Below, one piece after another: positions 34,936-37,836 of a DNA stretch of 37,836 bases. How positions within the stretch are numbered: position 1 is the stretch's first letter; the number at the start of each line of letters is the position of its first letter. The position numbers and the translations under genes are program-made. The notes under the pieces were generated by a model. It was not told the DNA's origin. It ran no database searches and saw only the letters and a list, made by a program, of their open reading frames with translations. This DNA comes from Halalkalibacter oceani (GTDB lineage: Bacteria > Bacillota > Bacilli > Bacillales > Bacillaceae_D), in NCBI RefSeq assembly GCF_023715605.1, contig NZ_JAMBOL010000032.1, positions 1 through 37,836 of the forward strand, given 5' to 3'.

Positions 34936-35931
34936 CTATTGAATAAAAATCAGATAGGAGGAGACGAAGTAGAGAACAATTAAGATTAAGGAAGGGAGAG
35001 CGTAGCGGAAGGCTGACTCTCTTGGCTTACGAACGAGTGAATATAGAACGACAATGGAAAGGATTCCGACTGCTGCTGCGGTAATCTGATGGACATCGGA
35101 AGCGGCGCTAATAATCGTCCCTTTCCGGTAAAACACATCTGAAGCACCAAGGATCAAGATATTAAACAAATTGCTTCCTAAAATCGAACCAATCGCCAGG
35201 TTATGGTTGCGCAATTGCAGCGCGACAAGAACGGACACGGCTTCGGGAAGGGAAGTCGTTGCGGCAATTAGGAAGCTGCCGACAAAGCTTGCTCCGAGAC
35301 CGGTAATGACAGCAATCTGATCCCCGCTGATAGTAAGAAGGGTGCCGGCACCCATGATGACAAGTGCGGCGATAATAAAGCCGATGATCGCCCGCTTTAA
35401 AGGAATGGCCGACAGATTGTAGGGCGATTCCTTTTCCTCCTCGATTTGCTGGGGCGCGGCCTGCTGCTTTTTCGATAAATAAGAGATCAGCCAGAGACCT
35501 GCTCCGTAAATCATCATTAGCACCCATGTATCAAGCCCGATGCCGAGAAAGTCATAGGGCAGGCGAAGCGTCAATGCCAAAAGGGCCGCAATCGCCAACA
35601 AAAGGCCTAAACTTGCCGTATAAAAATGAGACCGGTCCGCGGAAGCGAAGATTTGCTGTTTGCGGTAATATAAATCAAAGCTGGCTAAAATTAATAAATT
35701 AAACATATTGCTTCCAAAAACATTTCCGACAGCAATATCGGGACTGTCGAGAATAATCGCCGATACGCTCGTTGTTACTTCAGGAAGAGAGGTGGCGCCA
35801 GCGAGAAGAATCGTGCCGACAAGCATCCCGCCGAGGGACGTCTTTTCCCCGATTGTATCGGCGTAAGTAGAAAGTTTCACAGCAGCGATCACCGTCACAA
35901 CCGCCGCTAAAATAAACCAGACAAAAACCAT
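34936..35931 (-). CDS. CaCA-family cation antiporter, under a manganese riboswitch
   Basis: A 331-residue polytopic membrane protein of the Ca2+/cation antiporter superfamily (YrbG-like). It has two inverted repeats carrying the alpha motifs: GATSLPEVTTS ... GNVFGSNMFNLL in the first half and AATTSLPEAVS ... GSILGSNLFNILIL in the second, about ten helices and a charged cytosolic loop (near 165-185). CaCA proteins exchange Ca2+ or related ions for Na+ or H+. The ATG at 35931 follows AAAGGAGG; an upstream in-frame reading runs through the leader. The leader holds a yybP-ykoY (Mn2+) riboswitch, so Mn2+ export is the likely role; CaCA members are known among genes under this riboswitch, recalled from the literature. 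Confidence 0.88.
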   Translation of the reverse strand: MVFVWFILAAVVTVIAAVKLSTYADTIGEKTSLGGMLVGTILLAGATSLPEVTTSVSAIILDSPDIAVGNVFGSNMFNLLILASFDLYYRKQQIFASADRSHFYTASLGLLLAIAALLALTLRLPYDFLGIGLDTWVLMMIYGAGLWLISYLSKKQQAAPQQIEEEKESPYNLSAIPLKRAIIGFIIAALVIMGAGTLLTISGDQIAVITGLGASFVGSFLIAATTSLPEAVSVLVALQLRNHNLAIGSILGSNLFNILILGASDVFYRKGTIISAASDVHQITAAAVGILSIVVLYSLVRKPRESAFRYALPSLILIVLYFVSSYLIFIQ

Positions 35932-35962
35932 TGAAGCTGCCTCCTTTTTCTTTAAACACCAC

Positions 35963-36021
35963 AAAAAAAGACCCTTTTATGAGAGTCTGCCCGTAAATCG
36001 CTGCTCTCATAAAAAGGTCTT
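35963..36021 (-). terminator. riboswitch-controlled terminator of the antiporter gene
   Basis: Read on the minus strand, AAGACCTTTTTATGAGAG (36021-36004) pairs with CTCTCATAAAAGGGTCTT (35985-35968), followed by T7. The first arm contains the 3' strand of the aptamer P1 helix, so aptamer folding and terminator exclude each other. Confidence 0.85.
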
Positions 36022-36127
36022 GCGTACTTTATGAACATGAAAAGATCATGCCAGAAAGCTCAATGAACCGAGTGGAATTCCACTGTCATGACGACTCATT
36101 GACCAGTTGGTCGCTACTCCCCTTTTC
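36011..36127 (-). promoter_or_regulatory. yybP-ykoY manganese riboswitch aptamer
   Basis: Read on the minus strand it opens with AAAAGGGGAGTAGCG and closes with GCAAGACCTTTTT, the diagnostic ends of this class, which pair as P1. Between them are a TCAATGA/TTCATTGA stem with tip GTGGAATTCCAC and a CGGTT block. Mn2+ binding stabilises P1, prevents the overlapping terminator and turns the gene on. The match is from memory of the consensus, without a covariance search. Confidence 0.88.
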
Positions 36128-36150
36128 GGGTATCCAGTTGTGTTGGACTA

Positions 36151-36180
36151 AATGTAGCATGAAGCTCTAGTATTCGTCAA
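36151..36180 (-). promoter_or_regulatory. promoter of the riboswitch-antiporter transcript
   Basis: On the minus strand, TTGACG (36180-36175) and TACATT (36156-36151) with an 18-base spacer, about 25 bases upstream of the aptamer. Confidence 0.65.
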
Positions 36181-37715: not shown

Positions 37716-37836
37716 GTGTGCCCGGCATGTGCATGGGCTATAGGGTTCAAGTCCCGAGCAGTGAAGGTCACTGTAACTGTTAGCCAACGACAAGGGTGTC
37801 TAGGGTGACCTAGAATCTGAAGGAAGTCCGAGGCAA
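37716..37836 (+). mobile_element. group IIC-type intron, 5' end (truncated by window edge)
   Basis: Starting with the group II 5' consensus GTGTG then CCCGGC, the sequence continues with blocks I recall from domain I of bacterial class C introns (Oceanobacillus O.i.I1, B. halodurans B.h.I1): GGGTTCAAGTCCC, TAACTGTTAGCC, ACAAGGGTGTC and GAATCTGAAGGAAG. The window ends inside domain I, so the reverse transcriptase gene and 3' end are not seen. It sits immediately after an intrinsic terminator hairpin, the known target of group IIC introns. Confidence 0.88.

Follow-up and report, generated by a model that had tools for sequence, protein, structure and literature searches.

Bacterial Mn2+ exporters include MntP, the cation-diffusion exporters, and P-type ATPases controlled by riboswitches. 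Bacterial proteins of the CaCA superfamily commonly carry a Na+/Ca2+ or H+/Ca2+ exchanger annotation. In B. pertussis, BP3410 is annotated as a calcium:cation antiporter and lies under a yybP-ykoY riboswitch, through which it is induced by Mn; calcium is stated, as data not shown, to be without effect, and cells without a working BP3410 hold about five times more Mn (PMC8546581). In L. lactis, helix P1.1 of the riboswitch competes with an intrinsic terminator, and Mn2+ keeps P1.1, so that the gene is turned on by antitermination (PMC11087558). The adenosine that discriminates Mn2+, contacting it by its N7, is numbered A41 in the L. lactis riboswitch and A48 in that of X. oryzae (PMC6754395). 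The ykoY riboswitch of H. halodurans is of the same class, but precedes a TerC-family gene, not an antiporter gene (PMC10898510). TerC proteins have been proposed to metalate exported enzymes.

We analyzed a stretch of 37,836 nucleotides from Halalkalibacter oceani (hereafter, the window), where a CaCA antiporter gene lies on the minus strand behind a yybP-ykoY leader. As in BP3410, the CaCA gene is directly under the riboswitch, with a promoter (here a promoter-like sequence) upstream of it; unlike it, BP3410 is betaproteobacterial and inactivated by a duplication in almost 98% of the fully sequenced strains (PMC8546581). We liken the two by architecture and annotation, not by sequence; a betaproteobacterial plasmid relative, from Variovorax, shares 33% identity with the window protein. 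The predicted competition between P1.1 and a terminator and the L1 and L3 motifs are shared with the L. lactis Mn2+ riboswitch (PMC11087558, PMC6754395), which controls another kind of transporter, a P-type ATPase orthologue, instead of a CaCA antiporter (PMC11477304). On the protein side, NCX_Mj from Methanocaldococcus jannaschii (PDB 3v5s/3v5u) belongs to the same superfamily and has TSLPE in both repeats, but its Gly before TSLPE is Ala and Thr in the window protein, and its D240 is Asn. The window's genome also has a yybP-ykoY riboswitch before a YkoY-type TerC gene (locus L002, contig C52).

The kind of system is thus already known from BP3410, and what is new here is the survey of how far the pairing has spread in the window's order. 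Among the papers listed by our searches, the B. pertussis study is the single case of a CaCA gene under this riboswitch that we recognised, and we recognised no account of the wide spread, though one may stand in the founding papers of the riboswitch class. The locus is probably a Mn2+-induced Mn2+ exporter, that is, a one-gene unit of Mn2+ detoxification.

Layout of the locus and identity of its leader

The antiporter locus was correctly placed by the first-pass annotation at 34936-36180. Read on the minus strand from 36180 to 34936, it comprises a promoter-like sequence, the aptamer, a terminator, AAGGAGG, and a frame of 331 residues (Table 1), with the ATG at 35931 and a stop ending at 34936. 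A stretch of 1451 bases has four promoter-like sites on its two strands, against 1.7 (sd 1.5) in shuffles, and the Halalkalibacter relatives have, by eye, a similar sequence at the same position. The next gene in the window is convergent and encodes a ResA-like thiol-disulfide oxidoreductase. A convergent gene of one cluster, of about 185 aa, follows the antiporter in 15 of the 15 fetched loci of the family. Given this convergent neighbor, the antiporter gene is probably transcribed alone. Elsewhere in the window, the start of a group II intron (RF02001, 33.7 bits) lies at 37799-37836 on the plus strand, about 130 bases past an HlyIII/TrhA gene, and is cut by the window end.

Table 1. Features of the antiporter locus, in positions of the window
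Feature	Position	Strand	Basis
Promoter-like TTGACG-18-TACATT, TG before the second hexamer	36151-36180	-	Consensus scan, 9/12 matches
yybP-ykoY (Mn2+ riboswitch) aptamer, P1.1/P1.2/P2/P3/P4, four-way junction	36011-36127	-	RF00080 and covariation
L1 motif GGGGAGTAGC	36113-36122	-	Exact in 53/55 CaCA-linked leaders
L3 motif CGTCA	36089-36093	-	In 52/55 CaCA-linked leaders
3' motif GCAAGACC closing P1	36023-36016	-	Sequence
Intrinsic terminator	35963-36021	-	Fold; 5' arm overlaps the P1 3' strand
Ribosome-binding site AAGGAGG	35940-35946	-	Sequence
CaCA-superfamily cation antiporter, 331 aa, probable Mn2+ exporter	34936-35931	-	PF01699, TIGR00367, NCX_Mj
Alpha-1 repeat, residues 38-78, GATSLPE ... 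GNVFGSNMFN	35698-35820	-	Alignment to NCX_Mj and 134-protein alignment
Alpha-2 repeat, residues 217-257, ATTSLPE ... GSILGSNLFN	35161-35283	-	Alignment to NCX_Mj and 134-protein alignment

The leader is a yybP-ykoY aptamer, which confirms the first observation made on this DNA. Both aptamer ends that had been claimed for it, the L1 and the 3' motifs, are present. A covariance search with RF00080 (E-value scan, 391 nt) matched 36014-36130 on the minus strand with 30.5 bits (E 9.8e-7); with the whole 4.5 Mb genome searched, this score corresponds to E = 2.7e-6. The predicted fold has a z-score of -5.35, and none of 200 shuffles was as stable. At the gathering threshold, Rfam reported no RF00080 match anywhere in the window, as the leader's 30.5 bits fall short of the gathering score of 45, which is a curation threshold and not a biological feature. 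Among 14 control genomes, including E. coli, B. subtilis, and L. lactis, RF00080 matched nine and exceeded the cut-off in only two. Since the other seven of these nine are also below the gathering score, a sub-threshold score does not refute the match in the window.

Rfam is weak on CaCA leaders: in one batch of ten loci, every one of them with a leader, it listed three (37.9, 33.9, and 28.9 bits) with an E-value of 0.05 or lower, and none above the gathering score. Hence, we built our own covariance model, R1, from ten leaders. The window leader is one of them, so that its own R1 score proves nothing. The first relatives of the leader came from nine loci, of which five are from Halalkalibacter, three from Jeotgalibacillus, and one from Alkalihalobacillus. 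Each has one GGGGAGTAGC in a leader ahead of a CaCA gene, and Rfam listed three of the nine at the same E-value limit; in one Jeotgalibacillus locus (L011) the leader precedes the first CaCA gene of an operon, 2.1 kb upstream of the matched CaCA gene. In the alignment of ten leaders including the window's (A2, RNAalifold structure), 98.1% of the cells form standard pairs and 21 are compensatory, against 7.0 in shuffles; six pairs show a compensatory change, which is not unusual (reached by 98 of 500 shuffles).

We then aligned to R1 55 CaCA-linked leaders, the window's included, which are a selection of those found; one leader fills two rows (L011 and L078), leaving 54 distinct. Here, 95.9% of the cells are paired, 23 of the 38 pairs change on both sides, and 249 cells are compensatory; shuffling gives 59.0 (sd 7.9), and sliding the partners gives 51 at most. 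Being fitted to the R1 structure, this alignment leans towards it, but the margin is still large. Covariation extends over six helices, so that the junction of P1, P2, P3, and P4 is held by pairing; P1 and P1.2 show little variation, P3 and P4 the most. L1 reads [AG]GGAGTAGC and the 3' motif GC[AG]AGA[TC]C in 55/55 leaders, and the three that lack CGTCA in L3 still have, by eye, TCA or CCA. By motif, the A at 36089 corresponds to the Mn2+-discriminating adenosine A41 of L. lactis.

These motifs bear on the identity of the ligand. The aptamer might have changed specificity and sense a divalent ion other than Mn2+ (Ca2+, Cd2+, Co2+, or Ni2+), which the antiporter would then export. Breaker's group considers that some yybP variants have probably changed ligand (PMC7266159), the class is said to bind also Co2+, Cd2+, and Ni2+ (PMC11477304), and for the aptamer of S. 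pneumoniae, tighter binding of Ca2+ than of Mn2+ has been reported, although Mn2+ activates transcription more (PMC9495176). We regard this explanation as highly improbable: L1 is kept in 55/55 leaders, CGTCA with the presumed discriminating adenosine in 52/55, with CA kept in the other three, and calcium failed to induce BP3410, as stated among data not shown (PMC8546581). The ligand would be Mn2+, as expected from the riboswitch class.

The first arm of the terminator had been proposed to include the 3' strand of P1, and indeed all eight bases of this strand fall in the predicted stem, which runs from 36021 to about 35968 and is followed by a T run to 35963 (-28.0 kcal/mol). In 55/55 CaCA-linked leaders, the predicted terminator stem takes in 60% or more of the P1 3' strand, and so it does in 40 of the 43 other yybP-ykoY leaders of the family. 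This matches the L. lactis arrangement, which makes an ON switch the natural reading of the window riboswitch. A review on C. difficile riboswitches describes the class as OFF switches with loose metal specificity (PMC11477304); the OFF label disagrees with the experiments in L. lactis and B. pertussis.

The antiporter and its ion-binding positions

The antiporter is a member of the CaCA superfamily. It matches PF01699 over two stretches (118.6 bits for a cut-off of 24.9), and both alpha motifs attributed to it are there, with TSLPE at residues 47-51 and 226-230 and the Glu kept in both repeats. It does not reach the cut-off of TIGR00367, the calcium/sodium antiporter family (101.8 vs 179.65 bits); two relatives from a single genome of Jeotgalibacillus also score below it (89.8 and 91.9 bits). 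An AlphaFold model made from 11 sequences has ten helices, with a mean pLDDT of 40.3. The best relative of solved structure is NCX_Mj (phmmer 3.9e-8). Both TSLPE Glu, S77, S236, and N81 are conserved between the two proteins and D240 is replaced by Asn; these are positions that we take to be the ion ligands of NCX_Mj.

We compared relatives having an L1 motif at most 500 nt upstream (linked, here and in the tree below) with the others, counting identical proteins once; L122 at 0 counts as unlinked only through being cut off from its leader. In the alignment of 134 proteins, none of the predicted ion-ligand positions separates linked from unlinked relatives. The residue before TSLPE is Gly in NCX_Mj and in nine of nine YrbG-like paralogues. 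In window-type proteins, it is Ala in the first repeat of 58/58 linked and 59/61 unlinked sequences, and Thr, Ser, or Ala in the second repeat of all 119. It marks the clade and not the linkage, and hence cannot alone be called a Mn2+ signature.

The main rival explanation accepts that the riboswitch senses Mn2+ and makes the antiporter chiefly a Na+/Ca2+ or general divalent exchanger, acting by cross-protection, e.g., by adjusting Ca2+ under Mn2+ stress. Such a role would fit the family annotation, the conservation of all the presumed NCX_Mj ligands except D240, and the unlinked relatives, which have the same site. Ca2+ has also been reported to rescue the Mn2+-sensitive growth of an mntE mutant of S. 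pneumoniae (PMC11434433). We nevertheless find it unlikely, because the antiporter scores below the curated Ca2+/Na+ cut-off, a Mn2+ switch precedes 91 of the best 150 relatives listed, and BP3410, which bears the same annotation, is reported to export Mn (PMC8546581).

Spread of the pairing and proposed function

In the family of the window's host, R1 found 86 riboswitches in 41 genomes. All 16 leaders above 95 bits directly precede a window-type PF01699 gene (compared by eye): 15 were fetched and confirmed, with 74-97% protein identity, and the 16th is the window. As R1 was trained on CaCA leaders, high scores select them, and a count from the gene side is fairer. Among the 58 family riboswitches examined in fetched loci, 15 serve a window-type gene and 43 serve others, TerC/YkoY being the most frequent, while five window-type genes checked within the family (L071-L075) had no riboswitch.

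Of 397 genomes across the order, 144 encode a window-type protein (threshold E 1e-40); the following counts rest on the best 150 genes and, for R1, on the best 108 matches of a longer list. An R1 match lies at most 600 nt upstream of 86 of the best 150 listed relatives, at 48-162 nt from the gene in 85 of these 86 pairs and at 330 nt in one. We fetched and rescanned the remaining 64 (L106-L168 and L071), which added five riboswitches (L147, L151, L165, L166, and L167) and brought the count to 91 of the best 150 listed. The other 59 have no riboswitch directly upstream; for two of them (L117 and L135), the contig supplies about 300 nt of upstream sequence before it ends. Four (L107, L110, L122, and L126) seem, judging from spacing, to be later genes of an operon whose first CaCA gene is switched. 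Rfam scans of 40 of the 59 gave no RNA family at E 0.01.

Outside the window's order, the pairing is the exception in our sample. A window-type protein occurs in 36 of 398 genomes sampled across the phylum, and R1 found a riboswitch in two of the 29 fetched loci other than the window's: L192 (44.9 bits) and L204 (29.9 bits). The latter is also matched by RF00080 just upstream of the CaCA gene with 51.3 bits, over the gathering score, and is the only RF00080 match given by Rfam among 17 phylum loci (L193-L209). We also searched, as an outgroup, six proteobacterial plasmid relatives (L186-L191; 142 plasmid records matched), and found no loose leader motifs within 500 nt upstream. In the protein tree, built by a quick method and with several long branches, the linked/unlinked label changes 12-13 times, at least nine of them on well-supported branches. 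This pattern may come from repeated loss of an ancient linkage or from its having been gained several times.

Could the pairing be a matter of chance, or a decayed neighborhood with no regulatory effect on the gene? Two relatives, L106 (genome G025) and L116 (G026), have by eye lost the aptamer and retain the terminator hairpin just upstream of the CaCA gene, as decay would have it. The strong covariation, the overlap of P1 and terminator in 55/55 leaders, and the short riboswitch-gene distances make this very unlikely, close to negligible. As a separate observation, one locus (L185:2046-3198) has a riboswitch before a window-type CaCA gene broken by frameshifts or an assembly error, and its genome carries an unlinked copy of such a gene elsewhere.

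The first-pass annotation had proposed that the switch predicts a substrate, Mn2+, that the Na+/Ca2+ annotation misses. The 91 of the best 150 listed relatives, the two of 29 phylum loci, and BP3410 support this, and the antiporter stands as a candidate. As the pairing of switch and CaCA gene recurs in many related bacteria, the antiporter most likely exports excess Mn2+. Transcription would start upstream of the aptamer. At low Mn2+, the terminator hairpin would take the P1 3' strand and RNA polymerase would stop before the gene; at high Mn2+, the ion would join L1 and L3, P1 would stay closed, and the terminator would be blocked, so that the antiporter is made. It would then export Mn2+, with Na+ or H+ as the probable counter-ion. 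Here we infer the main substrate, the direction of transport, and the coupling ion.

Two Jeotgalibacillus loci (L011:862-3999 and L012:2850-6002) have an operon-like order of riboswitch, CaCA, YtaF, and CaCA genes, YtaF being of the MntP family (PF02659, 59.5 bits in L011). Since YtaF has, to our knowledge, no established function of its own, this operon is supporting evidence only. The window's genome has three MntP-family (PF02659) and three cation-diffusion (PF01545) genes, none of which adjoins an R1 match; with these six candidates, the antiporter would not be the only exporter. Several results go against a Mn2+ exporter: 59 of the best 150 listed relatives and 27 of the 29 phylum loci (by R1) are without a switch, the label changes 12-13 times on the tree, no ligand position separates the two groups, and RF00080 scores under its gathering score.

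If the antiporter is a Mn2+ exporter, a riboswitch of known ligand ahead of a large coherent clade would provide an independent substrate assignment for at least 91 genes of our sample and name the residues to test. BP3410 and the window antiporter together would establish the CaCA superfamily as a recurrent family of Mn2+ exporters. A bolder reading, which we find doubtful and offer tentatively, is that Mn2+ efflux in much of the order was founded on this pair, as a module older than its scattered distribution and working as a Na+/Mn2+ antiporter. The altered residues before TSLPE (Ala for Gly in the first repeat; Thr, Ser, or Ala for Gly in the second) would then adapt an NCX site for Ca2+ to the smaller Mn2+ ion. 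Alkaliphilic and halophilic members would then export Mn2+ where proton-driven exporters work poorly.

Other yybP-ykoY leaders in the surveyed genomes

A second, distant CaCA lineage, YrbG-like and, in the loci named here, 26-28% identical to the window protein, is also found behind yybP-ykoY leaders. It follows the leader directly in L048 (G022:C27), and comes after a Spo0M-like gene in L031, after Spo0M- and EcsC-like genes in L036 and L040, and after UppP and AI-2E genes in L032. By eye, the P2 helix of the four-way junction is clear in the CaCA leaders L056-L070 and seemingly absent from most of the others (L016-L054).

Eight of the 43 leaders not serving a window-type gene form a subclass with GCCAGACC in place of GCAAGACC or GCGAGACC (L026, L032, L035, L038, L046, L048, L049, and L051); L046 is in the window's own genome (C47:388422-388515). 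All eight precede genes for UppP (PF02673), an undecaprenyl-phosphate translocase-like protein (PF04018), an AI-2E transporter, or a YrbG-like CaCA protein, followed in some cases by CNNM or mechanosensitive-channel genes; one representative was scanned per cluster and the other identities follow from the clustering. The same gene set stands behind a canonical leader in L020, against a clean split by GCCAGACC. The subclass could be a ligand variant.
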